NCBI GenBank assembly: GCA_037893245.1
Contig: JBAIAA010000531.1
Coordinates: 2,046,001 to 2,110,000, forward strand
Length of the DNA: 64,000 bases
DNA from: Crossaster papposus
Taxonomy: Eukaryota; Echinodermata; Asteroidea; Velatida; Solasteridae
Direction of reading: 5' to 3'
Position 1 is the stretch's first letter, and each line of letters opens with the position of its first letter. This document shows positions 7,037-55,849 of the stretch, one piece after another. The notes beneath the pieces were generated by a model. It saw only the letters and a program-made list of their open reading frames with translations. It searched no databases and had not been told where the DNA came from. Position numbers and translations under genes: made by a program.

Positions 7037-7303
7037 ATGGCATTGAAATTGGTGACAAGTGACACTCCTCATCCAACTCTACCAACCACAGATTGGAGTA
7101 ACTGTTTTCTCTGTGAACAAGTAACAGATGAAAAGTTGACTTGTCCTTTGAATCATGCATTTAGTGGTGCTGAATACAAAACACTAGCTAACAATCTTCC
7201 TGCCTTGTATGAGATTGGCAAGTTGCCATCCCCCATAAAACTGGATCGTCTAGATGATGGTGATGGTCTTGAATCCACATTCAGACAGAGACATGCCAAG
7301 TAT
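7037..7303 (+). CDS. Academ-like transposase, N-terminal part
   Basis: The frame opens with MALKLVTSDTPHP at 7037, following a pyrimidine-rich acceptor-like stretch (TTTTTTCTCTTTTTAG, ending near 7008). It carries a first zinc-binding cluster, C-F-L-C at residues 23-26 and a later C-P, and ends in HAKY where the LTR element is inserted. After the insertion the same frame resumes at 17974 (a His codon), giving the typical H-x-K-x-H...C pattern. The LTR element therefore landed in this coding exon with duplication of GTAT. Proteins of this type are widespread in invertebrate genomes; the transposase assignment rests on family resemblance. Confidence 0.7.
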
Positions 7304-8407
7304 TGTAACGGAAAGTGTATTGACTTAAAGCCAGTCTAGCCTGATGCAGCGCGATTGTATTATAATTATGAATGTACAGACTGTTCTGTGTTGGTGACTG
7401 GGCGGAGCTTATCGCGCTCTAGCGAACTGCTGCTTGTACGTGATTGGGTAACCAAGGTTTATAGGTAAAGTACATGCATGCATTATGTACATGGTTAGGT
7501 ACGTGTACTGTATAATGTACGTACTCACGTGGTACGTGTACGTACGTGTTTATGGGTCAGTCGAGCTGTGGATTCCGTTAGGTAAGGTACAATTGTTGAT
7601 TGCGTCCTGCGTTTTATGTAAGGCTTATGCGCTTAAGCCGTGGTCGACTCAACTCGGGCTGCACTGCACGTGCAAAGCTGATGTGTAGCCATACAATATT
7701 GTACCGTATGATGCTGACGCAAGCTTGCATGGGTCAAGTGTAGCTGGTGCAGAGCTTACGGGTTGTGCGTGACACCGTGTAATGCTGCCGCAGTACTATT
7801 GAGAAGCTTATTATCGGTACAGCGTTTACACTGCTTTGACACAGCGCAGACTTTTATAGTGTACTGTTTACATTGGACTGTATTGTTTACATTGGACTGT
7901 ATTGTTTACATTAGACTGTATTGTTTACATTAGACTGTATTGTTTACATTAGACTGTATTGTTTACATTAGACTGTATTGTTTACATTGAGGTGCATTGT
8001 TTACATTAAATCGCCTTGTTTACATTGTAGTGCGTTGTTTAAATTGTGGTTCTTGGATGCATCAGGGACCCTAGTATAGAACAACCCGGCCAGTTTAGTC
8101 CGATCATTACTGTACGTTTCTTGATCGTTGACTAATAAATTACAATCATGCTTGTTGTGCCGACAACTATGTTGTCAAGGTGTATTTCTTGTTAGTGTAT
8201 TGTGCAGTTGTGAGAGAGTAATCGCAATAATCATAATCGGCGGTATATTTCCTCCAAAACGGACCTGCTCCCTGAGCCTTGAGGTCGCTCTGAGTGGTCT
8301 CTCGTCTAGGGAACGCTTGGGTTTGGGAAGATCGGTTACATTATAAAAGGTGTCAGACGTACTCGGTCCCAACAAACTTAGGTTGGCCCGGGGAGATCCC
8401 CGCCACA
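7304..8407 (+). repeat. 5' LTR of Gypsy element 1
   Basis: Starts TGTAACGGAAAGTG and ends CCCCGCCACA, giving TG...CA ends. It contains a run of about nine 19-bp units of the type TGTTTACATTAGACTGTAT (about 7860-8040), and alternating TACGTACGTG stretches near 7500-7550. The copy number of the 19-bp unit differs from that in the 3' LTR. Confidence 0.9.
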
Positions 8408-8408
8408 A

Positions 8409-8425
8409 TGGTGTCAGAAGTGGGA
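8409..8425 (+). other. Primer-binding site, tRNA-Leu type
   Basis: TGGTGTCAGAAGTGGGA starts one base after the 5' LTR. It is complementary to a tRNA 3' end of the form TCCCACTTCTGACACCA, which resembles animal tRNA-Leu acceptor ends. Minus-strand DNA synthesis would start here. Confidence 0.8.
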
Positions 8426-8506
8426 TGATTGTGATTGATTAAGTGATTTCTCTGTGAATTATTTGATTGCACATTGTATTGTGGTTTGTAGTAGTTGTTA
8501 TTAATT

Positions 8507-10110
8507 ATGAGCGAAGGCTCGCAGGGTCAAGCGAGTACCTCAGGCGTTGAGGCCGAGGTACAGCGACTGCGAATGGAAGCTCAATTTCTGCACTGGGAAA
8601 AAGAACTCATTGCAAAGAAGTTGGAAGCTGCCATGGAGTTGCAGTCGGGTGTTTCCCCTACGGGACGGAACACGAGCACGCCAGGTGAAAGCCGGCGTGT
8701 GTTCCATCAGGTTGATACCGATGTTGAGCTGAGGTTGCCCGAAGAGACTACGGGGTATGTCTCGGAAGCAACTGGGAGACGAGAGTCAGGCACAAAGATG
8801 GTGCCTGAGTGGGTCCCCAAAGAGGGGAGGGAGGTGAGCTTTATGGAAAGTACTCCTCTGAAAGACCCAGGCTCAGGAATAACACCCCGAGCAGGGTCAG
8901 CGCCTATCGCCTTGGAATACGAGAGTCCAGTCATGGACGACTTGTCGCTATTCCTGTCGGGGCAAGGTGGCGAAGAACCGGGTAAGCCAAGTACGAACCC
9001 GTTCACTTGTGATAGGAAGAAGATAACCCCTACACAGATGCACAGCGATCGATCTGCTAAGTTCCGCTACTCGACCAGTCGAGGCGAGGGACAGCAGATC
9101 AGCGGAAAAGGTGGACAGCTCGTCATTAGGCCCTTGGCCACTAAAACGAAAGGCACGTGTCCATGGTGACTTGGGTCAGAAGAGATGTTTGGAACAGCCA
9201 AGTCGCAGGCCAAACATAACTCCTGATCGGTACAATGGAAAAGTGCTCTGGAAGGAGTACTTCCGCCATTTTTAGTCATGCCGTGAGGTAAACCAATGAA
9301 GCGAAGTGCAAGCTGCGAAGTGGCTAGCCGCAAGCTTGCAAGGGGATGCTCTACGGTTGGTGGGCGACTCAGGCCAAAAGCAAACGTATAGTGCATTGGT
9401 CAAATTGCTTGAGCGTAGGTTTGGCTCAGCACGACGGAGTGAGAACTATCTCGTCGAGCTGAGACACCGGCGCCAAAAGCCAAAGGAAAGCTTGCTTGAA
9501 CTGGGGCAAGCTATTTATGAGTTAACGGTGCGAGCGTACCCTGAAATACCGGAAGATGCTCGAGAGAAGTTGTCAAAGAACCACTTCATAGATGCCGTTG
9601 ACAGCCACTCGGTTAGAGAGGGCATCAACAGGGCCCGTCCAATAAACTTTGGACGAAGCAGTCCAGGCTGCCCTGGAGACCGAAAATTTTAAGACGGTCG
9701 AACAGCATAGATTGCTGGACCGGCAGCCCGCCAAATTTGCGAGGGCTCTGGGCTCTGTAACAGAACAGAGATTGGAGACTCTTGAGGAAAGTCTCAAAAA
9801 TCAGGCTAAGACTTTGAAGTCTGTGGCCGAATGGGTGAATGCCTTGTCGGGTCAAAACAAAGGCCAGGGACAAGGCAAAGGCGTGCTGTCTTCCCAGACA
9901 CATAAGCCGGGGAAAGCCGAACCTGGAACCTGGAAGTGTTTCAGATGTGGTGAGAAAGGGCATTTCGCCCGGGAGTGTAAGGGAACTCCAAAACAGGAAA
10001 ACGACAGTCGGCCCCCCGGAGGACCCACGGGAAGGCTGAATGGTCGAGAGGGTCCAAAAGTAGACTCCGGGAAACCAGAGGTTTCAAACGGGAGGATGGG
10101 CAACGAGTAA
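8507..10110 (+). pseudogene. gag region, Gypsy element 1
   Basis: Begins MSEGSQGQASTS at 8507. The N-terminal part is helical and charged. A capsid-type segment covers about 9300-9640 (RFGSARRSENYLVELRHRRQ), and a CCHC zinc knuckle C-F-R-C-G-E-K-G-H-F-A-R-E-C lies near 9938-9980. This order is standard for Ty3/Gypsy gag, which forms the particle shell and binds the genomic RNA. It is a fossil and reads in more than one piece. Confidence 0.85.
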
Positions 10111-10849
10111 TCACTCTGCCTGATCTGAGCCGTGGGCCTCGGTATGGTCTGTTTGTGGATGGGATGGTACGAACAACCAAGTGTCGATTCCTTATTGACA
10201 CGGGGTCCACCGACACGTTAATAAGTAGTGCGGTGTATTACCAAATCCCCCAGGGTAAAAGACCTGTCTTGGACACGGTAGACGTCCAGGTAAAACAAGT
10301 GGACGGAAGCCAGTTAGCTGGGCTAGGCATGGCTTGGGTTGAGGTGCAAGTTGGTAGGACCACGCACCATAGTATGGTTACTTGTGTTATTTAACTAAAA
10401 TTTTCCTACACTAGAAATTTTTGATGGTTTTTTGTAGTTTTGACGCTCAGGAATCCAAATCAAATTGTTACCATTTTTTACGATCAGCCGTTTGTCGGCC
10501 ATCTTGAATTTCAAAATGGCTACCATTTTGAATATAGTTTACATTATATCTCAACTTGTGGGTGACATAGAGCTGTGAAATTGGTGGCAATACCCATGTT
10601 TATGATACCAAGCTTTCAGTATAAACCATAATTGAACTTGTATCAAGTTTCCGCCATCTTGAATTTCAAAATGGCCGCCATATTCAATTTAGTTTGTACT
10701 ATATCTCAACTTGTGGGTGACATAGAGCTGTGAAATAAGTGGCAATACCCATGTTTACGATACCAAGGTTTTAGTTGAAGCCATTATTAAACTTGTATCA
10801 AGTGCCCGCCATCTTGAAATTTCAAAATGGCCGCCATTTCACTCTATTT

Positions 10850-11450
10850 TATTGGAGCTGGAATTACCGCGGCTGCTGGCACCAGACTTGCCCTCCAATA
10901 GATCCTCGTTAAAGGATTTAAAGTGTACTCATTCCAATTACAGGGCCTCGAAAGAGTCCTGTATTGCTATTTTTCGTCACTACCTCCCCGTGTCGGGAGT
11001 GGGTAATTTGCGCGCCTGCTGCCTTCCTTGGGTGTGGTAGCCGTTTCTCAAGCTCCCTCTCCGGAATCGAACCCTGATTCTCCGTTACCCGTTACGACCA
11101 TGGTAGGCGCATAACGTACCATCGAAAGTTGATAGGGCAGACATTCGAAGGATCCGTCGCCGGTGCGAAGACCGTGCGATCGGCCAGGTTATCCAGAGTT
11201 CACCGACGGAGCCAGGACGAGCCCGGGTTGGTCTTGTTCCTAATAAAAGCACGCCTCCCGTAAGGTCGGCGCTTGCTGGCATGTATTAGCTCTATAATTA
11301 CCACAGTTATCCATGTAGGGGGATGCGCTCCAAGGAACCATAACTGATTTAATGAGCCATCCGCAGTTTCGCTTGTAAAAGCTTTTACTTAGACATGCAT
11401 GGCTTAATCTTTGAGACAAGCATATGACTACTGGCAGGATCAACCAGGTA
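10850..11450 (-). rRNA. 18S rRNA, 5' third only
   Basis: Read on the minus strand, it starts TACCTGGTTGATCCTGCCAG at 11450, the universal 5' end of eukaryotic 18S rRNA. It runs about 600 nt to GGTAATTCCAGCTCCAATA at 10850, just past the 530-loop. The sequence looks well preserved, with standard helices such as GTGGTAATTATAGAGC and GCGCAAATTACCCACTCC. The remaining two thirds of 18S, 5.8S and 28S are absent; the sequence switches directly to the transposon arm. It is a truncated rDNA copy and not a working rRNA gene. The sequence is animal-like and most similar in feel to echinoderm/hemichordate 18S. Confidence 0.95.
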
Positions 11451-12345
11451 GCCCCCTCGGGGCCTGGGTGGGCGGGCTTACCCACGCGCGTGGGCCCGCC
11501 GCTCTCCGGCCGGACCCGCTGCGGCTGCCGGGCCGCGGCGCCGGTGTACTTCAGGCATCGTGACCGGGCTAAGGGACCCGGGAGCCTCCTCCGCCGCCTC
11601 CTCTCGTCTCAATCCGGCGGTCTGAGAGGGCCAGCCCTCAGAAGAGGGTGAGCCGCCTCGGTCCGCTCCGGGGCGGGCTGCTGCCCGCCGCCCGTTCCGC
11701 CGCCTGGGCCGCGGCTCGGCGCCCCGCCTGGGGAACTTGCTACCGCCCGCCGCGATACTGCAGCGGGCGTTCGAAATAGGTGCCGCTCGGCTGGCGAGAG
11801 CGGGAGGGAATTGGCTTCCCGCGTCTCGACGGCCCGCGCGGCCGCTCTGATTGCCATGGGTTCCGGGAGCCCGGCGGGATGTCGTGGCGGGCCCGCCCCG
11901 TGCCGCCCCGCGCCGCAAAGCGGGCGCGGGCGGTGCGGGCGGGCTGGCCACGGCGATCCCATCGCACTGTGCCGGGCCTGTCCGAGTGCCTCGAAAGGGC
12001 ACGACAGGTTTGGCGGGCGGGGGAAAGAATCCCCCATCCCACTTGCTTCAACTCTCCGGGCACCGCAGCTGCGGGCGCGGTCGGTCGCTCGCTTCTCACC
12101 GCCCGGGTTGGGCGCGACAGGTCGGCGGGGACGCGGAGTCGGGCAGGGAAATCATCCCCCGCTCCGCCGGAAGCCAGGGCACCGCAGCCACGGGCCAGCT
12201 CTCGGTTCTGTCGCCAACCCAGAGTATCGAGAACCAATCCGGATGCATCCCACGCCGATCGGACGACGGGTGTGCGACGGGGGACAGTCCGAGTGGTGAT
12301 CCGCTCCATAGGTAGTGTACAAACCTTCGCCTGACCACCTGCCCC
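11451..12345 (-). other. 5' external transcribed spacer
   Basis: A very GC-rich block (many CCCGCC/GGCGGG runs) directly upstream of 18S on the minus strand, extending to a TATA-like sequence near 12350. Position and composition identify it as the 5' ETS of pre-rRNA. It produces long open frames on both strands (for example 11478-12002 and 11780-12334), which are composition artefacts. Confidence 0.85.
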
Positions 12346-12370
12346 CTTATATATAGCCACACCAACGCGA
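12330..12370 (-). promoter_or_regulatory. Candidate RNA polymerase I start region
   Basis: On the minus strand CTATATATAA (12356-12347) is followed by GGGGGCAGGTGGTCAGG. This is the only AT-rich island in the GC-rich spacer, and it lies about 900 bases upstream of 18S, where a polymerase I core promoter is expected. AT-rich TATA-like cores occur in some invertebrate rDNA promoters. The exact start base is inferred, not seen. Confidence 0.5.
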
Positions 12371-13190
12371 TGGCCCCCATTTAGGCTCGTCCCAAAAAAA
12401 CGGAGACAATCGGAGGAACGCGGGATCGTCGGTCGGCTACCCGCCGCGCACGCTCTCGTACTCGACCCAACCCGTCTAATTCTCGCTTATCTCATAGGAA
12501 CGTGTACAAATCGCCTATCGGTCTTTTTCGCCTCGGATCGCCCGAACGGGGACTTTTTCGGCTACTCCTACGCAGCCTTCCTTTTCCGCCGACAGAAGTT
12601 TCGTCGCTTCCCCGGGCACCTGCTGTCAACGACCGGCGGCCTCCGCCCGCAGGTCCCGGCGCACCCATCCGGCCTAATCGAGAGAACGTCTCTAAATCCG
12701 CCAAAAATCGTACCCCTCCAACAGGCCCCAGCTGGCCCGTCTCATCTCGGCCCGGACGCCCACGAATGCCTGTCCACCGCACGCTCACATGGCCTTCCTC
12801 GTACGACGAGTCGCAGAGCACTCCGTGCACCGCCCGCTCGTGGGTCTGCCACCCACGAATGCCTGGAATCCGCACGCTCACAGAGCCTTCCTCGTACGAC
12901 AAGTCGGATGGCACTCGGGGAACAACTTGCTCGTGGGTCTGCTACCCACGAATGCCTGGCCGCCGCACGCTCACAGGGCCTTCCTCGTACGACAAGTCGG
13001 ATGGCACTCGGGGCACCTCCTGCTCGTGGGTCTGCCACCCACGAATGCCTGGCCGTCACACGCTCAAAGGCCCTTCCTCGTACAATTGCAGCTTTACTTG
13101 AGAAGCCGTTAGAGAGCCGGTCAAGTCCGCTGAAAATCGTTCCCCTTCGACAGGCTCTATCATCTCGGCCTGGCATTTCTGGAGGGCTCA
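12371..13190 (-). other. rDNA intergenic spacer with 93-bp repeats
   Basis: Spacer upstream of the presumed polymerase I start. Four phased CACGAATGCCTG motifs lie at 12761, 12854, 12947 and 13040, exactly 93 bases apart, each unit also carrying CTTCCTCGTACGAC and CTCGTGGGTCTGC. Such repeats upstream of the start are the usual location of rDNA enhancer or spacer-promoter repeats. The related passages CCGCCAAAAATCGTACCCCT (about 12698) and CCGCTGAAAATCGTTCCCCT (about 13128) bracket the array, so a larger period may exist. Confidence 0.85.
12735..13106. repeat. Tandem 93-bp repeats, four units
   Basis: Start-to-start distances are 93, 93 and 93 bases. The two middle units are close to identical; the first (GTCCACCGCACGCTC) and the last (GTCACACGCTCAAAGG) are more diverged. 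They also create spurious open frames on both strands. Confidence 0.9.
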
Positions 13191-14500
13191 GGTGGTCATA
13201 TTAAGAAGTAAGGATACCAATAAGGGCCATCCGGGAAGTACCTGCAAATGTAACGTATTTCATAGTACATACATGAATATCAATGTAAGCAAATATATAC
13301 AGGCAAACCTGATATATGACACTGTTATACTTGCATCAATACTATATATATTCATGAGGATCTATTTAAAATGCATCATAATGGCAGCCATCTTCTTGAA
13401 ATAGAAAATGAAAGTTGATACAACATGATAGAGTGTGATTATGATTCAAACTGAAAGATTAGCATAAAAAATGAGTATGCCTCTAATTTCCCCCGCTCTA
13501 TATATATATAGTGCAAAAAGAGTGACTATGGCGGCCATTTTGAAATTAAAGATGGCGGGCACTTGATACAAGTTTGATTATGGCTTCAACTGAAAGCTTG
13601 GTATCATAAAGATGGGGGTTATTGCCACAAATTTCACAGCTCTATGTCACTCACAAGTTGAGATATAGTACAAACTAGATTGAAAATGGCAGCCATTTTG
13701 AAATTCAAGATGGCCGCCAAACGGCTGATCGGAAAAAATGGTAACAATTTGATTTGGATTCCTGAGCGACAAAACTACAAAAAAACATCAAAAATTTCTA
13801 GTGTAGGAAAATTTTAGTTAACTTATACTATCATGACATAGGCAACCAGACTACCAAGTGAAGGCAGTGTTTGCCGAAATAAAATACAGTGGTATCCTGG
13901 GCATGGATTTTCTCGTGCCAACAGGAGGAAGTTTAGACTTCCAATTAAGAGAGTGGGGGCTCAATGGAGAGCGAATCAGGTGCGCAAATGGTGCAGGAGA
14001 TCCCTTTGTGGGACGCGTTGTAGTTTCTGAAACTACAGTGATCCCACCAGGTCATGAAGCTGTGGTCCCTGGCAAAATTGCCCGGAAGGGTCCCGACTTG
14101 TTCGGGCCAGCTATGGTAGAACCGGTGGAAGGTGGTGGTGACCTAGTCAAGAAAGGCTTGGTGTTAGCCAGATCTCTGGTTGAGACTGAAGCCGATGTTG
14201 TTCCGCTTCGGGTCTTTAACCTTGACAGGGAGAAAAGAGTTGCCCGTGAGGGAACAACCGCGGGAGTGATCTCCCAGGTTGAGGTCAGCTCAATTCCTGA
14301 TGAGGTTGACGTGGTGGCTAACACAGGGAAGGAGTTGCCCCTGTATTTGCAAGATGTATATGAGAGGGGTACAGCCAATGTAGATGCTAAGTACCATGGT
14401 GATGTCCGGAAATGTCTGATAGACTTTCAGGACGTGTTGTCCAAGGGTGACCATGACATCGGTCGCACGGACGTGGTCAAGCATCAGATAAACTAGGCCA

Positions 14501-16285
14501 ATGAAAGAGCGGGTGAGACGTCACCCGTACGTGCATCAGCAGGAGATCCAGAGGCAAGTAAGCGATCTGAAGACTCGGGGAGTAATAGAACCCTCCGATA
14601 GTCCCTGGGCAGCAAATGTTGTCCTGGTTGACAAGAAAGACGGCACAAAGCGCTTCTGTGTCGACTACAGAAAGCTAAATGCAGTCACTGTCAAAGACGC
14701 GTACCCTGTCCCGCGCATTGATGAAACTTTCGATGCATTGGAAGGGGCAAAGTGGTTTTGTACACTCGACTTAGCGTCAGTGTACTGGCAAGTCGCTCTT
14801 GATGAGGACGCCAGCCAGAAGTCCACATTTGTTGTAAGGAATGGGTTGTACCGGTGGAAGTGCATGCCCTTTGGGCTTTGCAACGCCCCGGCGACCTTTG
14901 AGCGGCTCATGGAAAAAGTCATGGCCGGCTTGCAGTGGGACATCCTACTGATATACTTGGATGACATCATCGTGTTTGGTAGAACAGTGACGGAGACCCT
15001 AGAGCGTCTCCAGGTTGTGTTGGAAAGGCTAAGACACGCTGGGCTTAAGTTGAAGCCTAGCAAGTGCCATTTGTTTCAAAAGTCAGTGGCTTACCTGGGG
15101 CACATAGTGTCCTCAGAAGGCGTGGCCACAGATCCAAAAAAGGTTGAGGCAGTGGCAAATTGGCCAGTTCCAAGGTGTGTACGGGATGTGAGAAGCTTTT
15201 TGGGCCTCGCCTCGTACTACCGGAAGTTCATACAGGGATTTGCAGAAATAGCTAGTCCACTCCATGCCCTGACCAAAAAGTCAAAGGTGTTTGTATGGAC
15301 TGAGTGTTGTCAACAGGCATTTGACGAGCTAAAGAGCAGGCTTCAGGCCGCACCAGTTCTGTCATACCCAGTGCCCGAGAGCGACTTTATCTTGGACACC
15401 GATGCCAGTGGTGACGGTATCGGGGCCGTGCTGTCCCAGGTCCAAGACGGTGACGAAAAGGTGCTTGCTTATGCGAGCCGGAAGCTCAGCAAACCTGAGC
15501 GAAACTACTGTGTCACTCGCAGAGAGTTGTTGGCTGTAGTGGTATATTTGAAGTATTTTAAACAATACCTGTATGGCCGGAAGGTGACCGTCAGAACTGA
15601 TCATGCCGCATTGCGGTGGGTGCTTAACTTTAAGAATCCCGAGGGTCAGCTGGCAAGGTGGATGGAGGTCCTGTCTCAATACGACTTAGTCGTAGTGCAC
15701 AGAAGTGGCAAGAAGCATGGAAATGCTGATGGGTTGTCGAGACGGCCATGCAAACAGTGTGGCCGTGACGAAGAAGTTAGTGAATATGAGACAACTGGTG
15801 AAGTACCCGAGGGTCAACCTCAGGGTAGTGAGTATTTGGTTAGGGGCGTAGCCGCTCAACCAACCCTGTCGCAAAGTGCTTTAAGAGAAGCACAGCTTCA
15901 GGATGACACCGTCTGTTGGCTCATATGTTTGAAGGAAGAGGGGAATTGTCGCCCGGAGTGGAAGACAGTTTCTCACTTGTCAGCAACCTGCAAGACCTAT
16001 TGGTCGCAGTGGGACCAGTTGGAAGTCCGTGAATGGGTGCTGCATAGGCGGTGGGACTCCGATGACGGAAAGTCCAGCCGGTGGTTATTAGTTTTGCCAC
16101 CAAGGTTCCGCAAGCAGATCATGGCTGAGTTGCATGGTGGGCAACTTAGTGGTCACTTAGGGGTCAGTAAAACTCTGGCCAAAGTGAAGGCAAGGTACTT
16201 CTGGCCAGGCATGTCTGCAGACGTGCGTTCATTTCTCCGAGGCTGCGAACTTTGTGCCAGGAGAAAGTCGGTATGCTGCAGCTAA
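14501..16285 (+). pseudogene. pol region (RT, RNase H, integrase zinc), Gypsy element 1
   Basis: Reverse transcriptase blocks in order: VLVDKKDGTKRFCVDYRKLN, the D of FCTLDLAS, MPFGLCNAPATFERLM and the catalytic YLDDIIVFG. The RNase H domain follows (LDTDASGDGIGAVLSQ, RRELLAVV, VRTDHAAL), then the integrase HHCC zinc motif (H...H...C-x2-C, ending near 16260). Motif spelling is that of Ty3/Gypsy. This long well-kept frame is consistent with the low LTR divergence. The element as a whole is a fossil. Confidence 0.9.
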
Positions 16286-16530
16286 TGAGGGAAGCCCATA
16301 GTGCAGCGTCCTCTCTGCCCAACATCGAGGTGGCTGACTGCGGCAGTGAGATGTCGGCGGAGATGGCCATGTCCACGGCATTGCCCAACCGGATGCGGAT
16401 GGCCAAAATTAAGGAGTACACCCGGAGGGAGGTTTTTCTGGACGGGCAAGTGGTTAAGACCGAGGAAAACCGTATTTCCTACCTCAAGGCGATCAAGGTG
16501 GATGCAGAGGGCCAGCCTACCGGAAAGTAA
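16276..16530 (+). pseudogene. Unrecognised short frame near the 3' end of Gypsy element 1
   Basis: An 84-residue frame from MLQLMREAHSAASSL at 16276 to a stop at 16528-16530, followed by AT-rich sequence up to the 3' LTR. It is rich in Met, Ala and charged residues, with RMRMAKIKEYTRREVF and VKVDAEG-like ends, and I do not recognise it. It lies where the end of integrase or a small accessory gene would be expected. It may be a late pol segment or a picked-up sequence. Confidence 0.35.
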
Positions 16531-16901
16531 ATATATAAGTTAATTGTTTCAAGTTTTTATAGGTTAAACGTTGTTCTGTCGGCCCTTGATTTTTGTGATT
16601 TCTGCGAAAGTGATTTTCTGATAATTGTATAAATATTTAAATTTGTGGAAACTTGCTAAGTGTAAATTACTTTGTATATCGACTACAATTCCTCTCGTTG
16701 AATCGGTGCTACATCAATTACTAAAAATCATTGTATTTTTTTTAATCTGTGAAATCTTGTACAAAATTGAACAAATTGTGAATATGTAATGAGCTTAACT
16801 TTTATATTAAATTATAAAGCAAAGGTTAAGAAATTGCCACTTTCCTTTTTAGTTTTATGGCTTGTGGTGTATGGGGACATACACCGCCTAGCTCGGGCCT
16901 G

Positions 16902-17969
16902 TGTAACGGAAAGTGTATTGACTTAAAGCCAGTCTAGCCTGATGCAGCGCGATTGTATTATAATTATGAATGTACAGACTGTTCTGTGTTGGTGACTGGG
17001 TGGAGCTTATCGCGCTCTAGCGAACTGCTGCTTGTATGTGATTGGGTAACCAAGGTTTATAGGTAAAGTACATGCATGCATTATGTACATGGTTAGGTAC
17101 GTGTACTGTATGTACGTACTCACGTGGTACGTGTACGTACGTGTTTATGGGTCAGTCGAGCTGTGGATTCCGTTAGGTAAGGTACAATTGTTGATTGCGT
17201 CCTGCGTTTTATGTAAGGCTTACGCGCGTTGTAAGTACAAGCCGTGGTCGACTCAACTCGGGCTGCACTGCACGTGCAAAGCTGATGTGTAGCCATACAA
17301 TATTGTACCGTATGATGCTGACGCAAGCTTGCATGGGTCAAGTGTAGCTGGTGCAGAGCTTACGGGTTGTGCGTGACACCGTGTAATGCTGTCGCAGTAC
17401 TATTGAGAAGCTTATTATCGGTACAGCGTTTACACTGCTTTGACACAGCGCAGACTTTTATAGTGTACTGTTTACATTGGACTGTATTGTTTACATTAGA
17501 CTGTATTGTTTACATTAGACTGTATTGTTTACATTAGACTGTATTGTTTACATTAGACTGTATTGTTTACATTGAGGTGCATTGTTTACATTGAATCACC
17601 TTGTTTACATTGTGGTTCTTGGATGCATCAGGGACCCTAGTATAGAACAACCCGGCCAGTTTAGTCCGATCATTACTGTACGTTTCTTGATCATTGTCTA
17701 ATAAATTACAATCATGCTTGTTGTGCCGACAACTATGTTGTCAAGGTGTATTTCTTGTTAGTGTATTGTGCAGTTGTGAGAGAGTAATCGCAATCATCAT
17801 AATCGGCGGTATATTTCCTTCAAAACGGACCTGCTCCCTGAGCCTTGAGGTCGCTCTGAGTGGTCTCTCGTCTAGGGAACGCTTGGGTTTGGGAAGATCG
17901 GTTACATTATAATAGGTGTCAGACTCGGTCCCAACCAACTTAGGTTGGCCCGGGGAGATCCCCGCCACA
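16902..17969 (+). repeat. 3' LTR of Gypsy element 1
   Basis: Starts TGTAACGGAAAG and ends CCCCGCCACA like the 5' LTR. It has fewer copies of the 19-bp TGTTTACATTAGACTGTAT unit (about 17465-17575). It is followed by GTATCATTAG, where the host transposase frame resumes. Confidence 0.9.
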
Positions 17970-17973
17970 GTAT

Positions 17974-20520
17974 CATTAGAGCTGTAGTCTAAAATACAAT
18001 GACAACAATTTACAACGAGCAACAAAACACAAACATATTCCTGAGAGGCCTGAGAAGTTTACACGACAGAAGATATCAAAAACTGATCATGCAGATACAA
18101 ATAACTGTCTCTTCTGTAACAAACCTGGAACATCAGCTAAGCCTCTCCACAATGCAGCCACTGGGGATCTAGATACAAAAGTAAAACAATGTGCCGTTAA
18201 CCTTCAAGATCAGCTTCTATTATCCAAGCTGAGTAGAGGTGATGTTGTAGCTATAGAGATGAAATATCATCCCAAATGTTTGGTAGCTCTCTATAACAGA
18301 GATCGTGCTCAGTCGAGTACATCACAGAAGGGTGATCCTCAACATACAGCCTGTGACACTGTTTTTGCAGAGCTACTCTCCTACAAGCAAGACATCTTAG
18401 AAAGTGATGAGGCAACGCCAGTGTTCCAACTTCCAGAATTGACCAAACTATATACATCCCGGCTACATCAGCTAGAAAAGGATGCGCCATCTAGCATCCA
18501 TGCGACTCGATTCAAGAAAAAGATACTTAGCTACTTCCCAGAGTTAGAGGCGCACAGTGAGGGGCGTGACATTCTGCTAGTGCCAAGTGGAACGGCTGGC
18601 AAATCTTTTCGGCAAACGTGTCAACTCAATGGAGAAACTGAGAGAGTATTGATGTCACGTGTTGCAGATATTATCCGCCGTGATGTGTTCAGCAATAAAT
18701 GTCCATCATTTGATGGTACGTTCGCAGGCGATTGCCAGCAGAGATCAGTACCATCGTCAATGCTTACTCTTGTTTCCATGATACTCCATGGTACCAGCAT
18801 CAAGAATGAAGCAACTTATCAATCACAAGCAGCACTGTCTCCTTCAAAGCTGTTACTGTATAACTCTGTTCGCCATCTGAAAACAGAATCAACAGATACC
18901 AGACACAGCCGAGATCGTGAACCCCCACTGCCTCTGTTCCTTGGAGCATATGTGCATTCCAAAACTAGATCCAAGGAAATGATTGATACACTTTACAAAA
19001 TAGGAGTCTCTGTAGCATACGGGCGTGTTCTCAGTATGTCTGCTGATCTGGCCAACACTGCTATCAACCACTTTGAATCAATAGGAGCGGTTTGTCCACA
19101 ATCCCTCAAGATTGGCCTATTCACAACATCAGCGGTAGACAATATAGATCATGACCCTACCTCAACTAGTGTTCACACATCATTCCATGGGACAGGTATT
19201 TCCCTTTTCCAGCATCCAGATGTTCATCACGTCGGCACTGAACAAGCACGTGTCCCACTGACAAAGGCAAACCGCAAGTTTTCAAAACTGCCAAACGACT
19301 ACACCGCAGTACCAGCTGTTTTGGCAATCAAGAATCCACCCATTCCAGAAATAAATGAGCCCAAGAAACCCAATTCTGTAGTTGATTTTGAAGCAGAAAC
19401 TCGGTGGTGTCAACATGTCTGCGATGCCATCAGTGTGACACAAGACAACCCAAACGAGGAAGGCAATGACAAGGACAGAATGCATATATCATGGGCCGCT
19501 TATTACCATGCTAACCATCAAAGTGACAATAACAGTCAAACAGCAATTATCACACTACTGCCATTATTCCCAGATGACTCTAAGTCAGTTGCAATGATAA
19601 AACATTCAATGGATGTCGTGAGGAAAGCTGTCAATATCCTCAACCAAGGACAAACCCCCATCATAGCCTGCGACCAACCCCTGTACAAAATTGCCAAGGA
19701 CATTCAATGGGCATGGCCTGAGACATACGGAGGAGACTCCTATGTGGTGATGTTGGAGGGGGGGGGGGGGGGGGGGCTTCATATTAAGATGACATCGATG
19801 AAATGCTTAGGAGACCTACTTGATGGGAGTGGCTGGACATAGCTAATCTGAAGTAGCTAATAGTGGCTGAAGTAGCTAATCATGGTACGGCAGATAGCTT
19901 TCTCAAGGCTTCCCATGTAAAGAAGACAACAAGGGCTCACCAAGTGACCACTTGTGCACTCTACAAACTCCGGCAAGGCGCCTACACCGAAGACGGGATT
20001 GGTGTAAGTCTAGAAGTTTGGTGCAACCAACGAAGCACAACCAGTGTCCAGTTCAAGTATTGTGATCTAATCTTAAACACTGAGCTAACTATCCTGACAT
20101 GGGACAGAGCCATCCATGAAGGAAACTTTCCCTTGTATGTTGAGGCCCTGTCTGCATTGCAGTAGATCTTTCATGCCCTAGACCATTACCATTACGCGCG
20201 GGCAGTATCTGTTCATCTACGGGATATGCTGACGCTACACAACAGGCATCCCACTATATACTCGGAGTTTTGCAAGGGTAACTTTACAGTGAACAGATAT
20301 AATCGTCCTTTCTCAAGTATGTCCTTAGATGAGAGCCACGAGCAGAACAACGCTTGTGTCAAGAATGAAGGTGGAGCATTCGGCCTGACTGAGAAACCGA
20401 CAGCCTTACTAAGATGGATGGTAACAGGTCCTGAGATGGTCCGGGTTGTTACAGAGTTCATTGGTGGATTAAACAAGACAGGCGCAGATACACAAACTCA
20501 TCATCATGAAGATACACCAG
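17974..20520 (+). CDS. Academ-like transposase, main part
   Basis: The frame from 7037 resumes here. Landmarks: C-L-F-C (second zinc cluster), LSRGDVVAIE-x-KYHPKC, the D of ACDQPLYKIA, GGLHIKM, FLKASHV...AHQVT, HALDHYHYARAV, and ESHEQNNACVKNEGGA near the end. These blocks recur in an abundant invertebrate transposon protein family; the D-containing ones are candidate catalytic positions. Defects: an in-frame TAG soon after the junction (17977), a frame change at the poly-G run near 19758-19776 with stops at 19840-19860, and a TAG at 20163-20165. The exon ends CACCAG|GTAATT at 20520 (phase 1). Confidence 0.7.
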
Positions 20521-21057
20521 GTAATTTGATTATAATAATTATTATACTGATCCACGGCAACCTTGCATTGTTGTCAACCGTGCGTCCATGCGTTAGGGAC
20601 AAAGTAAAAGCACAAAATACCCAAATATTGTAATCTTGGTAAAACTTGAAAACATTAAGAAATAAAACGTTATTTTTATTTAGCTACCATTTTCATTATT
20701 TTTTACCACATGTTATAATGTGAAACATGACAAACGTGATTATTATACCTCCAAATGGGCACTTTGGGAGACAATCCCATAGAGTCGTGCACAATCTTTA
20801 TTGTAACCTAACCCGTTTTTACCTGGAGCTTTTTCCACGAAATTTCATATTTATGCTATTTAGACCCAAATCTGTCTTCTCCGAGCAAACATAACTCCCA
20901 AATATCGTTTTGTGGGGTAGCTAGACACTTAGGGAGACACTGAAATGTCTCCCTAAGTGCCACTGTCTCCCAAGTGAATCAAAACTATCGCTAATTTGTC
21001 TCCCAAAGTGCCTATTTGGAAGAATTATATATATTCCATTCATGTTGTATATTCCAG
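20521..21057 (+). other. Intron of the Academ-like gene
   Basis: Donor CAG|GTAATT at 20521 and acceptor TATTCCAG at 21050-21057. Joining phase 1 on both sides continues the frame as ...EDTPG-KQATFLRDVKSL. The intron hosts a small inverted-repeat element (20748-21022). Confidence 0.65.
20748..21022. mobile_element. MITE, 275 bp, in the Academ intron
   Basis: Terminal inverted repeats of 27 bases: CCTCCAAATGGGCACTTTGG at 20748 and its near-complement ending at 21022. The centre contains a second hairpin (CACTTAGGGAGACA / TGTCTCCCTAAGTG, 20927-20961) that echoes the terminal GGGAGACA motif. It is non-coding. The superfamily cannot be told from the sequence. Confidence 0.65.
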
Positions 21058-23255
21058 GAAAACAAGCAACTTTCCTCCGTGACGTCAAGTCCCTGGTGAA
21101 GACTATGTCAGACATGGGTAACCCATTTATGGACACTATATAGTGGAAATCTACTGGTTCTTGACACTAGAGTGGTTGCTGATTGTACCATTGTAGATTC
21201 CATCCAAAAGATTAACTATCTACAGGGTGGTCCAAAAAAAACTATACCCAACTTTGGAGGCCATTTTCTCCTAGATGATAAAATATTTTAGTAATTTGGT
21301 TTGCATATTATTAAAGCATATATTATCGTTGAGCATTATTGGTGAAAATAGGGAAGATATTACATTAATATTTTTGGCGATATTCCTATTTTTAGCGAGT
21401 ATGTGTAAAAATGGCTTTTCCACGGGAGCTGTCAATGCATCAACATGTTTGAATATGATATGACACAATAATGTAATGACGCGATAGTTCTTTGACAAAT
21501 GTTTTTGCGAGAGCTTCTTTTATTTACACTAAAATGGATAAATAATACTTTTTAATAGATAGGCTTCTGGTTTTGCAGCATGCTTGAACTGGTATGTACA
21601 CAGCAATGAAAGCATGCTCCAAGAGTGAATTTGAAAAGCCCGCTCTGAGCATCTTGACAATAAAGACCTCTACTACATGTACTTAAGCCATTTTTACACA
21701 TACTCGCTAAAAATAGGAATATCTCAAAAATATTAATGCAATATCTTCTCTATTTTTACCAATATTGCTCAACGATATATGCTTTAATAATATGCTTTAA
21801 TAATACAACACAGCAAAAGCAGGTGAAAGCTCTGAAACGTGATCGCAACTTGTTCTCTACTTTATACACTGTCTGTCAAGTACGGCACACGGACATGGCA
21901 GAATTCTTCTCATATGAAAATCAGTCATATCCACCTTCCCTCTCTGACTATGGAGACAAAAGCAAAAGGACAAAGGCAAATCTCTTGGAATGTGTTCAAA
22001 ACCTAGTACCAGATCACGACACAGTCAGACCACATGATGCCCAGATGACCATCCTAGATGGTGCTGCCATTATCAACATGATCAAACCAGGAACATCTGA
22101 GTCATTCAATGATTATGCCACAAAGGTCATGGAATATATCCATAAGCAGTTTAATGGCAAAGTGCTGCGAGTTGATATGGTGTTTGATATCTACAGAAAG
22201 AACAGCTTGAAAGCTGGCACAAGACAGAAGAGGGGTAAAGGTACCCGAAGGCGTGTTGAAGGGAAGAATAAAATACCAAGTAATTGGCAGGAGTTCCTGC
22301 GCATAGATGACAACAAGTCTGAGCTCTTCTACCTCATCAGTGAACGTGTTGTAAATGATGCATTCCCAGGAATGGTGATCATTACCCATGGTGAGAAGGT
22401 GTTGTCGTCTGCCCCCTGTGATTGTTCAGGGTTGATGGCCTGTACACATGAGGAGGCAGACACACGGATGTTCGTGCATGCCTCAGACGGAGCTCAACAT
22501 GGTATGAAGAAGATTCTTCTCAGAACCGTGGACACGGATGTCGTAGTCATAAGCATAAGTCTGGCCCAGAAGATTGGTTGTGGGTGTCCATGGTTGGCTT
22601 TTGGTACAGGTACCACATTCCGGTATCTCGATGCAACAACCATGGCTGAAGCACTTGGTAACGACAAATGCATGGCACTTCCTGCATTCCACGCCTTGAC
22701 TGGATGTGACGTAACATCTGCATTTGCTGGGAAAGGAAAACGTACCACTTGGTCTGCGTGGAATGTCTTCGACGATGTCACAACAGCTCTGGGCACACTG
22801 GCCGATACGCCAACCACAGATAATGTCCTGAAAGTTCTTCCCACAATTGAGAGATTAGTGGTGATCATGTATGACCATGGGAGCCCTGAAAGTAGTGTTA
22901 ATAGTGAGTGACAGAGGTTATTCACTCAGAAAGGCAGAGCCATTGAAAACATTCCACCAACCAAAGACCACTAGACCAGTATATGTTGCGTGTAGGATAC
23001 GAGGCAGGTCATGTATGGGGTCAAGCACTGATCAAAGCACCACAGTTACCAAGTCCAGCAGACTTTGGGTGGACTTGGGAGACGTCCAATGTACAGTGGA
23101 AGATGAAATGGATGACTCTTCCACCTGCTGGTGAAACATGTCGTGCAGTCATCAAATGTGGATGTACCACGCGAAATGTATGCAGAGGACAGTGTAAATG
23201 CAAGAAGGCAAACTTGCCATGCACAACACTATGCGGGTGCCATGGATGTGAATGA
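21058..23255 (+). CDS. Academ-like XPG-type nuclease domain and CXC-like tail
   Basis: The exon starts at 21058 and is interrupted by a MITE (21223-21813). From 21814 a long frame carries acidic motifs of flap-type nucleases: E-E-A-D-T-R (about 22452), T-V-D-T-D (about 22530) and L-T-G-C-D (about 22695), followed by a G-K-G-K helix-hairpin-like spot. In FEN1/XPG proteins the equivalent acids hold two metal ions, so it could cut DNA flaps or branches. A stop at 22909-22911 and a frame change near 22970 separate it from the tail (22983-23255), which has C-x-C...C-x3-C-x-C...C-x4-C-x-C-x2-C, like a CXC/tesmin DNA-binding fold. An early stop and frame change also lie near 21145. Confidence 0.7.
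21223..21813. mobile_element. Mariner-like foldback MITE inside the Academ gene
   Basis: The left end reads TA-CAGGGTGGTCCAAAAAAAA, a terminus style of Tc1/mariner elements that insert at TA. Bases 21285-21455 reappear inverted at 21660-21810 (shared TATTCCTATTTTTAGCGAGT and GTGTAAAAATGGCTT). The expected complementary GGACCACCCTG terminus is missing at the right end, so that arm is shortened. Coding sequence of the nuclease exon continues on both sides. Confidence 0.6.
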
Positions 23256-32971: not shown

Positions 32972-34205
32972 TAGTCCAGGCAAAATACATAATTTTGTTT
33001 TGTTGACCTCAAACAAATTGCAACAAATTGTTTTTCACCACAGTGCACTTCTATAAGGTTCCTAGAATTACATACTAAAAATCTACAAAAATCCAAGTGG
33101 TGGAAATATGTCTAATTTGCATAAATCGTTAATCCCTGCCATGTAATATGTTTATTCCCATATTTGGGTATATATTTTAATTTTTTGAAAAGTTTATTTT
33201 GGTGATTCTATTTACATAATACTTGAATAACATTTGCTAAAGCATATAAGTGACTGAATAATTATGAGAACACAGTAATTATCCAAAATGACAACTTTGT
33301 GACCCTATAAATGTGCGCACATTACACTGTCTCCAGATATCATCATGTAGTCACTATTGGTGAGCTTCAAATTCACCAAGTTGCTTACTGGCACAGTTAT
33401 CATATTAAAACCTTATGAAAAATCATATGAACAATGATAACATTGTGATATTTAGCCCAGAAAACAAAAACTGGGGAAAAATGTTGTGTCTATAAATTGG
33501 GCTAACAAGTAGTTAAAGGGTTGCCTAACATGGAAGACTTGAACAAGTTCAAGGAAATCCCCAAAATACATTTTAACGTAGATATGATTATTGTAAGCAA
33601 CAAAAATCTTAAATTTGGGGGGTTTCCTTGAACTTGTTCAAGTCTCTCACCTTAGGCAACCCTTCACCTACTTGTTAGCCCAATTTAGGGACACATCATT
33701 TTTCCCCAGTTTTTGTTTGCTGGGCTAAATATCACAATGTTATCATTGTTCATATGATTTTTCATAAGGTTTTAATATGATAACTGTGCCAGTAAGCAAC
33801 TTGGTGAATTTGAAGCTCACCAATACTGACTACATGATGATATCTGGAGACAGTGTAATGTGCGCACATTTATCGGGTCACAAAGTTGTCATTTTGGATA
33901 ATTACTGTGTTCTCATAATTATTCAGTCACTTATATGCTTTAGCAAATGTTATTCAAGTAAGGATATGTAAGTAGAATCACCAAAATAAACTTTTCAAAA
34001 AATAAAAATAAAATATATACCCAAATATGGGAATAAACATATTACATGGCAGGGATTAACGATTTATGCAAATTAGACATATTTTCACCACTTGGATTTT
34101 TGTAGATTTTTAGTATGTAATTCTAGGAACCTTATAGAAGTGCACTGTGGTGAAAAACAATTTGTTGCAATTTGTTTGAGGTCAAAACTTATTTTTCCTG
34201 GACTA
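32972..34205. mobile_element. Long foldback element with Academ-type ends (copy 1)
   Basis: Two arms of about 585 bases face each other across a short spacer (about 33560-33615), matching almost throughout, for example GTGCGCACATTACACTGTCT and its complement. Ends are TAGTCCAGG (32972) and CCTGGACTA (ending 34205), flanked by TAT on both sides (32969-32971, 34206-34208). The first eight bases equal those of the Academ-like transposon at 5738 and the 3-bp duplication length agrees. It is non-coding and could form a near-complete hairpin. Confidence 0.8.
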
Positions 34206-43106: not shown

Positions 43107-44375
43107 TAGTCTAGGCGATATTTCAAAATGTGTAAATGTATACCCAGCACGATATGTGGCAGAGGGGTACCCCCCTCTTATCCCTATACCTTATACACAC
43201 TCAACACTATTGTAACCTAACCCATCCCCCCTTGAAACCTAAAAGGAATTCCTGATATTCCGGGAACACAATGGTCAACACAAAAGAGGGGGGGTTTTCT
43301 CTGCCACATATCGTGCTTCATATGGTTAAATGAAGAGGCATTTTTTTGTAAAAATTTGTAACATAGCTATTATACCTAATTTTGGGGTGCTGAATCCGAA
43401 AATATGGTTACCAAGCTGGATTTTTAGTGGAAATATGCCTAATTTGCATTCATCTTTAATATCTGCCGTGTTTTATATTTGTTTCCATATTTGGGTATAT
43501 TCTTTAATAGTTATTTTTTATTATATTTAACAGTTCCTTACTTCAATACATTTTCTAAAGCATATAAGTGACTGAATAATTATGAGGACATGGCAACAAT
43601 CCAAAATGGCTACTATAATATCCTAAAGTTGTGCACATTAACCTTGTTTCCAGAGTAGTCTTGCCTACATAACATTGATGAACTTCAAATTCACCATGTT
43701 GCTTATACTGATAAAGTTACCCTTTTAAAACCTTATAGAAAATCATGTGACAAATGATAACATCTTGATATTGAGACCAGCAAACAAAAATGGGGGAAAA
43801 CGAGGTGTCTGTAAATTGGGCTAAAGAGTAGGTGAAGGGTCTCCTAACGTTGAAGACTTGAACAAGTTTAATTTGGCCGAATAACCAAGATGTTATCATT
43901 TTTCACATCATTTCCCATTTATTCTTGTTAGGGTAACTGCGCCAGTAAATAACTCTGTGAACTTGGAGCTCATCGATACTGACGTTTGGCGAGAGTACTT
44001 GGTGAAATCTGAGGAAATGTAAATGCGCGCAACTTTGGGCTACTATAGTAGCAATTTCGGATTGTTATTATGTCCTCATAATTATTCAGTCACTTATATG
44101 CTTCACAAAATGTTATTAAAGTAAGGAACTGTAAGTACAATCACCAAAATAAACTTATATATATATGCACAAAATATACCCAAATATGCGAACGAATATA
44201 TTACACGACAGGTATTAAAGAGTTATAAAAGTTAGGCATATTTCCACTACAAATCCAGCTTGGTAACCATCATTTTCGGATTCAGCACCCCAAAATATCC
44301 ATGTTACAAACTTCTACTCAGAAAATGCCTCTTCTTGCCCTAAATGTGCCCCGTTTTAAAATATCGCCTAGACTA
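43107..44375. mobile_element. Long foldback element (copy 2)
   Basis: Ends TAGTCTAGGCGATATTT (43107) and AAATATCGCCTAGACTA (ending 44375). Arms of about 500 bases match in reverse, including AGCATATAAGTGACTGAATA and its complement, a phrase also present in the foldback at 32972-34205, so the two belong to one family. The arms are more diverged than in copy 1, and a 170-bp MITE (43146-43317) sits in the left arm. No target duplication is visible. Confidence 0.75.
43146..43317. mobile_element. MITE with AGCACGATATG ends (copy 2)
   Basis: AGCACGATATGTGGCAGAG (43146) pairs with CTCTGCCACATATCGTGCT (ending 43317). A 19-base perfect inverted repeat and the central GAAACCTAAAAGGAAT are shared with 25273-25428. 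It interrupts the left arm of the foldback element, so it is the later insertion. Confidence 0.7.
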
Positions 44376-53430: not shown

Positions 53431-54905
53431 AAGATATCAGAACACAACATCATTAATACTGAAAAAGACCACACAAAACAAATGTGTGGACAGTGCTTAC
53501 ATTATGCATGTACATGTAGGTGCATAATGCGATGTGTAAACCTAAAAACAGTCCACACACACTAACACGTTTTCTGGCCTGTCCAAACAGGACAGCAATC
53601 GGATACATCCATTCCCCCGGCACCTCCGAATTGTCACCTAGCACATCATGTACAAGTACAGCCATTTCCTCTCGTTGCAATGTGATCCCTTTGATCCAGT
53701 GAACTCCTCAGTGTGTCGGTGGATTTGTTGACGGAGGGCATTTGCATGTCTGTTGGTCCTTCCATGGTCCTCCCATAATGTAGTCTTGGTTCCAAGACCT
53801 TCGTGTTGTTTATTCCGCGATCACTGACACAAACCACATATGGTCTATTCTAATACTGCTTTTTGCACCAGTAAATACACCATTAAACACACTTTTACAC
53901 CCATTTATGGGTAATGCTTGCCAGGATCCTAACACCCAGTTGGAGTCGAGTATTTATTCAGAATTATTTACAAATGTATGTAATTTATATATGTAAGCTT
54001 ATAATTCTGTGTCCGTTCTGAACGAAATTAACAAAATAACGATCTACGAAAATATATAGAACAAGATAGTTATCCTCTGTATAACTTATCATGAAATAAA
54101 CCAATCGTTCTGCTTCTTCCGTTAAACGATGCGGACATCCATAAATAAAACACTGACCGTACCGAAGGACTGGGGATTAAAAACCAGAGATAAAACTATA
54201 CAAGCAAAAGACTCTGGAAAACCTTAAGTTCATTTCTACCCATTTTCGGTATCTTGTGATTTATCCTTAGGATTATTAACTAGCATTCACTGTTGTTCTT
54301 GACTGGTTGGAGTCCCAAGCTAGAATGACCCGTCATGGCATTTCCCTAGACTCACTTCAGTTCCTTATGCAAATTACATACCATTGTCCCCACAACCTTA
54401 TACGTGACACAATGCCACAATGCCACAATGCATTTATCAAACATTAGACAAGTTTTGCCTGCTCTACAGCCGTACTGCAGGCAAAGGAAATTATAGAGGG
54501 CGCTATCTCCAGACGAATCGCACCCGCGAACTGGACTCACTAGGTCTTAGATGAGTTAGCACATTGGGGGCGCGGTCAGACTATTGTAATATGCAGTATT
54601 CATATCACGTGATATTGATGGACGGTTAGGCAAATACGTGTGAGGGTTATTGTGTTTACGCAAAACGTAACACGATATGTTGACCCGGCCGTATATGTAC
54701 ATGTACATACAGTACATATATGTTGATGTTCATATACGTGTGTATCTACATACATGAAACAGTACATATACACAGCAAACCATCGCTGCCCCGGCGTTTA
54801 TTTGGCGGGTGCAGAGGTGTTTCTCTATGGTGTTTACTTTTGTTATGAGTGAAACCACTTTGCTCTATGGTGAAAACCTCAACGAATGCTAATTTATATC
54901 CTGAA
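53431..54905. other. Interior of the TIR transposon, nothing recognised
   Basis: No convincing gene. A minus-strand frame (53680-53453) containing LQREEMAVLVHDVLGD is open for 75 codons, and an adjacent frame covers 53837-53646. They may be worn transposon coding sequence, but I cannot identify them. Confidence 0.35.
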
Positions 54906-54909
54906 CATT

Positions 54910-55360
54910 TTTGCGACTAGTGAACAAATTCGCGACTAGTCGTGAATTTATTTGCAACTGGTCGTGAATTTATTTGCAACTGGTCGTGAATGTTTTCGCG
55001 AGAGGTCGTAAATATTTTTGCAACTGGTCGTGAATACTTTTGCGACTAGTCGCAAATTTATTTGCGAGTGGTCGTGAATATATTACTTGAATAATTCACG
55101 ACTAGTTTTATAAGACTAGTTGTTTGCGACTAGTCGTGAAGTTATTCACGACTAGTCGTAAATATTTTTTTCTCGACTAGTCGTGAATATTTTCACGAAT
55201 TATTCACAACTAGTCGCAAAAATATTCAAGACCAGTCGCAAAAAATATTCGCGACCAGTCGCAAATAAATGTGCAACTAGTTGCAAAAATATTCACGACC
55301 AGATGCGAAAAAATTCACGACTAGTCTCGAATAATTTCCCGACAAGTGGTGAACAAATTG
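54910..55360. repeat. Degenerate GACTAGTCG array with inverted halves
   Basis: About 18 units of roughly 24 bases of the form TTGCGACTAGTCGTGAATAT. The left half mostly reads TGGTCGTGAATWTTTTTGC and the right half mostly its complement (AATATTCACGACCAGTCGC), with the turn near 55100-55130. CGACTAGTCG is itself a palindrome, so the array is palindromic at two scales. Confidence 0.8.
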
Positions 55361-55849
55361 TGTATAATGAATAATTCATGATGATGCCCAAACTCAGTCG
55401 CTGATTGGATCCCTCGGAAAAGCGAGGGAGAATCGTCGAAAACTAAGGTTAAAGTTAACAATTGCTTGCCAACTTGTGATAGAGCCTAGACCCTTGAAGA
55501 AATCTAAAATCATGTACGTTTGTCAAACGTTGGCTCCAGTGCGAACAATGGATCCAGCTGCACTCTGTAAACTACGCATGCGTGAGACCAGAACGCACAC
55601 GAAGCCGGGTTTTGAGAAAGAGATAGCGTTAACGAATCTGCGCGCGCGGGCGCCGAAATAACACAATGGTCTAGGGCTAGACTACCCATAATGCTTTCCG
55701 GGCTGCTCGGGAAAACTAAAATAATGTAAACATATAGTTTGTGACATAATTATTAAACAAATATGTAAATATATATTTGATTATTTCCTTATAAAATGCA
55801 ATTCATGTATCCTTAAACGTCACATGACCATAATTATTTACAACCAGAC
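55361..55849. other. Non-coding, nothing recognised
   Basis: A mix of AT-rich and moderately GC-rich DNA inside the TIR transposon; the 61-codon frame at 55476-55661 has no recognisable feature. Confidence 0.4.

Follow-up and report, generated by a model that had tools for sequence, protein, structure and literature searches.

The 64,000-nucleotide stretch of Crossaster papposus DNA analysed here (the window) is rich in retrotransposons, and one of the LTR type, which spans 10,666 bp (7304-17969) and has kept both LTRs, carries an rDNA-bearing element nested within it. Its 5' LTR (7304-8407) and 3' LTR (16902-17969), both on the plus strand, were found to be 94% identical by self-blastn and have the ends TGTAAC...CCACA, with GTAT at 7300-7303 immediately before the first and at 17970-17973 immediately after the second; these outer GTAT copies argue for one locus, without proving the inner junctions of the nested element. 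Comparison with Pfam placed a zinc knuckle to the left of the insertion and a reverse transcriptase, an RNase H and an integrase zinc-binding domain to its right. The left flank matches positions 1-71 of the 92 in the aspartic protease profile PF13975 (E = 7e-06; 27 bits, just below the curated Pfam cut-off of 28.2), the match stopping near the insertion, and the right flank on its own has no Pfam match. The insertion point thus falls within the protease part of the retrotransposon, which is the older of the two elements. The protease is not cleanly interrupted by it, since approximately 54 nt at the TTAA site (10386-10394 and 13822-13866), with two in-frame stops at 10392-10394 and 13834-13836, are left unexplained. 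They separate the protease-like peptide on the left from VFAEIKYSGILGMDFL on the right, exceed the apparent need of the remaining 21 profile positions, and may be an older small insertion or a part of this copy of the host retrotransposon. GTGTT is present at 10384-10388 and again at 13867-13871, perhaps from an older insertion; deleting one copy together with the sequence between the two would shift the frame.

Several other features of the window lie outside the nested element. Beside the 3' LTR, 17980-22911 holds long open frames, of which 17980-19842 and 21664-22911 have no Pfam match; together the frames may derive from a single repeated protein of uncharacterised type. At 33003-34185 lies a long, almost perfect palindrome with arms 33003-33184/34004-34185 (99%) and 33220-33567/33613-33960 (96%); this is a fold-back type element, and self-blastn finds diverged relatives of it at ~43332-44334. 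A second self-complementary array, composed of units of ~22 bp in tandem and inverted arrangement, occupies 54899-55362.

The nested element spans 10391-13821 and is bounded by TTAA on either side, as read directly from the sequence (left copy 10391-10394, right copy 13818-13821), with inverted arms of ~460 bp each. An inverted-repeat search pairs 10384-10595 with 13617-13828 at 92% complementarity, and self-blastn pairs 10391-10704 with 13821-13506 at 90.5%. Over the outermost 115 bp the arms agree at 111 positions, compared with a maximum of 49 of 115 in 200 single-base shuffles of one side, allowing any register within 60, so that the matching inverted ends with TTAA on both sides that had been proposed in a first-pass annotation are borne out. 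Both arms are built alike: ~155-bp units adjoin a terminal segment of ~100 bp on its inner side. In the left arm (10395-10849, plus strand), two 155-bp units are well preserved (10495-10649 and 10650-10803), and a third is represented by its beginning (10808-10839). In the right arm (13361-13817, minus strand), the first unit matches well (13716-13561, 89%), the second has diverged (13556-13422, 68%) and of the third only a faint trace is left (13410-13376, 77%, E = 0.09); the first-pass annotation recognised this arm and ended it too soon at 13490, as recognisable units extend to 13376. The arm units start with a near-palindrome of the type GCCATCTTGAATTTCAAAATGGC, a candidate that could be a protein binding site. 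Eight of the 21 matches of AANATGGCNGC in the window, counted on both strands, fall in the arm units (10495-10840 and 13376-13716); this motif resembles a YY1 site.

Between the arms lies a block of rDNA on the minus strand, ~2.3 kb from within 18S to spacer, as the first-pass annotation had described it and as an Rfam small-subunit match and 93-bp repeats now confirm. The match is to eukaryotic SSU rRNA (RF01960, E = 1.2e-163, minus strand, 5' end at 11450) and comprises 601 nt of the 5' part of the 18S rRNA gene (10850-11450), roughly its first third. Signatures in this 18S point to an animal. Model positions 1-596 are covered; at CCAATA (10850) the alignment breaks off, and arm sequence takes over at a sharp junction. 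The rDNA abuts the left arm directly, the arm sequence at the junction being CTCTATTTTA. The usual continuation of 18S past this junction presumably shares only TA with CTCTATTTTA, a 2-bp microhomology at the 18S/left-arm joint that could be due to chance.

Upstream of the 18S part, still on the minus strand, ~0.9 kb with a GC content of 73% (11451-12341) is assigned to the 5' external transcribed spacer (ETS) from its composition and its place between 18S and an initiation-like motif, its start being putative. That motif, TATATAAGGGGG at 12342-12353, resembles a Pol I initiation site and contains the 11-mer TATATAAGGGG, which occurs nowhere else in the window on either strand. TATATAAGGGG is reported to be where initiation occurs in Brassica rDNA (PMC4691072) and would be the putative Pol I start in this animal element. 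Intergenic spacer follows at 12354-13173 (minus strand), assigned from composition and from matches to another spacer copy, and includes 3.5 copies of a 93-bp repeat with 86% matches (12759-13083, minus strand). The promoter-side spacer at 12694-12755 recurs past the repeats at 13123-13173 in two pieces (27/33 and 13/14 bases), and the rDNA therefore extends to at least ~13173. Its right edge, at ~13173-13190, is uncertain within that range and is set by composition and by the loss of likeness to the other spacer copy rather than by a reference unit; likewise, ETS and spacer are assigned from position, repeats and composition rather than from comparison with the rDNA unit of the species. The 18S 5' end, ETS and spacer repeats thus stand contiguous and collinear on one strand, in the order of 45S-type rDNA.

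An AT-rich, CpG-poor stretch of 180-200 bp (~13181-13360, edges approximate) separates the rDNA from the right arm and has no counterpart on the left. With 35% GC and a CpG observed/expected ratio of 0.34 over 13181-13379, it is probably the element's own interior. Among direct repeats flanking the rDNA block, which might point to an independent insertion, the best was the 6-bp CATTTC at 10835 and 13174, and we take this pair as chance. Nine open frames of at least 150 amino acids lie between the arms, out of 31 such frames in the window, and none of the nine matches a Pfam family.

The captured rDNA looks young and little decayed. CpG observed/expected ratios are 0.95 in the 18S part, 1.02 in the ETS and 1.18 in the spacer, whereas the arms have 0.64 and 0.52, the AT-rich stretch 0.34, and the host retrotransposon 0.76 and 0.68 in its two halves; the rDNA is thus free of the CpG shortage seen around it, a contrast that may in part reflect intrinsic rDNA composition rather than age. 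Of the 246 strongly conserved 18S sites (capitals in the Rfam model, model positions 14-595), 5 are changed in the insert and 3 in a plant-like 18S fragment used as a yardstick (L002). The yardstick equals the model at 468 positions; 38 of these (one of them a gap) are different in the insert, most being small-letter positions. The insert's changes at model positions 158, 396 and 415 look unusual for animal 18S and are candidate mutations at most; two of them, 158 and 415, fall on unpaired marks of the model alignment.

Searches outside the window were made with parts of the element. Four exact patterns, two from the arms (unit and terminus) and two from 18S (one host-specific, one of broader animal type), each had 0 matches in viral contigs. 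The broader animal-type pattern gave a single match in prokaryote genome contigs, in a Burkholderiales bin contig that ends in 18S, and the insert 18S matched no phage and two plasmid records (98% of the query at 83.2% and 29% at 87.0%), both of them stray eukaryotic 18S. The stray sequences are located at the end of the Burkholderiales contig JAGWTL010000033.1 (L001, 6100-6207), in a 1764-bp 'plasmid' of Acinetobacter baumannii (NZ_CP050525.1), plant-like by eye, and in a Campylobacter hominis 'plasmid' (NZ_CP082873.1). No transposase for the arms was found; in the 60.6 kb outside the element, 10 of the 31 listed open frames were run against Pfam, five showing retroelement domains and five no match, and a transposase there could have been missed because only these 10 of 31 frames were compared.

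TTAA elements include piggyBac and Kolobok, and piggyBac elements end in a CCY trinucleotide. The element shares the TTAA duplication with piggyBac, although TA also fits this single site, and its ends next to TTAA are CTAAAA and TTTTAG rather than CCY; the lack of a piggyBac transposase within it (0 Pfam families in 9 frames) is no argument against a non-autonomous member. A Tc1/mariner reading, in which TA within TTAA is the duplication and the ends are ACTAAAA and TTTTAGT, fits the same bases equally, so that on the letters of this single site TTAA and TA would be equal readings. The TTAA duplication is also that of Kolobok, and TTAA target duplications are a feature that the element has in common with Kolobok and T2-MITE elements. 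Kolobok is rejected, since the termini are CT...AG and Kolobok requires 5'-RR...YY-3' (PMC9587614, PMC6004289).

Pack-MULE and similar non-autonomous elements keep their terminal arms while the interior is replaced by host gene DNA; these Pack-type elements belong to other superfamilies and have other target duplications, and the cargo here is Pol I rDNA. The precedent for rDNA sequence in a TTAA element is Pokey, a member of the piggyBac superfamily in Daphnia, which the first-pass annotation had cited correctly in substance: Pokey carries IGS-derived repeats of ~200 bp and ITS2 pieces of ~50 bp (48 bp), in 2-5 copies each (PMC3849761), has potentially active copies with transposase, and inserts at one site in 28S and elsewhere. 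Elliott and colleagues report that Pokey takes up rDNA as well as further host DNA far from its ends, in the non-coding part, and they regard this internal position as evidence against simple end-slippage (PMC3849761). Pokey and the present element are alike in their TTAA target and in the rDNA-derived DNA that they hold internally. They differ in cargo (short IGS and ITS2 pieces in Pokey, here a single contiguous 2.3 kb block that comprises the spacer repeats, the initiation-like motif, the ETS and the 5' part of 18S), in transposase (borne by Pokey copies, none recognised in the element here) and in site (28S and elsewhere, compared with a retrotransposon for the copy here). A search of open-access literature by literal terms, over titles and abstract openings, listed no paper among its matches that names a DNA transposon in which spacer, ETS and 18S form one contiguous piece; retroelements with rDNA have been reported from fish (PMC2944182, PMC3585787).

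Taken at the level of its bases, the locus supports a TTAA-bounded inverted-repeat element that encloses contiguous rDNA from 18S to spacer. We consider it probable that this is a non-autonomous DNA transposon, nested in the LTR element, in which break or gap repair put an rDNA segment in place of the interior. Three features favour gap repair: the left joint is near-blunt, element interior survives solely on the right, and the cargo is in good condition. On this explanation, a non-autonomous DNA transposon of the cut-and-paste type would have entered the protease region of the retrotransposon, and a double-strand gap inside the element, in the present copy or a recent parent, would have been filled with the 2.3 kb rDNA segment. 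Such a gap could arise after excision of a copy or through another break. One end of the rDNA would have been joined to the inner end of the left arm after 601 nt of 18S, with ~2 bp (TA) shared, and the other, in spacer, to the AT-rich interior of the element; either order of rDNA capture and jump into the retrotransposon would be compatible with the locus. The arms would persist as presumed transposase binding ends, making the rDNA a cargo movable by a transposase acting in trans. Pol I starting from the putative start would cross the ETS, the truncated 18S (601 nt) and the left arm, running antisense to the retrotransposon. That a DNA transposase moved the element and that the rDNA came in by gap or break repair is what we infer, as is any promoter activity.

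A stronger form of the same explanation, with which its odds overlap, is that arms and rDNA together make up a multi-copy mobile family spreading Pol I start regions. This would suit the intact state of both TTAA copies and both outer ends and the collinear, little decayed rDNA, and Pokey shows rDNA pieces as a standing part of a TTAA family (PMC3849761). Self-blastn, however, revealed no further composite copy in the 64 kb window, and the two arm patterns had 0 matches in viral contigs, which says little, as an animal transposon is hardly expected there. We regard a multi-copy family as unlikely, and we give somewhat less credence still to a TTAA family whose insertions each plant a small Pol I unit (start region, enhancer repeats of the spacer, 18S 5' domain), with transcription passing 18S and the left arm to enter neighbouring DNA.

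Both rDNA and inverted repeats are classic sources of misassembly, and rDNA reads might have been misjoined between two repeat arms. Against such an artefact, both sides run into one LTR element with GTAT on either side, the AT-rich interior is retained on one side, and the overlap between rDNA and left arm is only ~2 bp, whereas misjoins usually need a longer one. The 5 of 246 conserved 18S sites at which the insert differs would be in keeping with a copy located away from the functional array, weakly so given the 3 of 246 of the yardstick, and on the whole we hold a misjoin to be improbable. Least probable, to the point of being very doubtful, is that two separate cut-short transposon insertions flank an rDNA fragment already present in the retrotransposon: the arms do differ (68% in the second unit), as copies of unequal age might, but their outer ends stand in exact inverted register, each with TTAA, the rDNA directly abuts the left arm, and an earlier entry of rDNA into the protease region would be required.

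With its unbroken stretch from spacer into 18S, the probable DNA transposon is a direct physical candidate for a transposition route. Should copies exist elsewhere, shared junctions would indicate movement as a unit and differing junctions repeated capture, a question decidable in one genome. If the mobile family is true, each insertion would plant a small Pol I transcription unit, here antisense to a retrotransposon.
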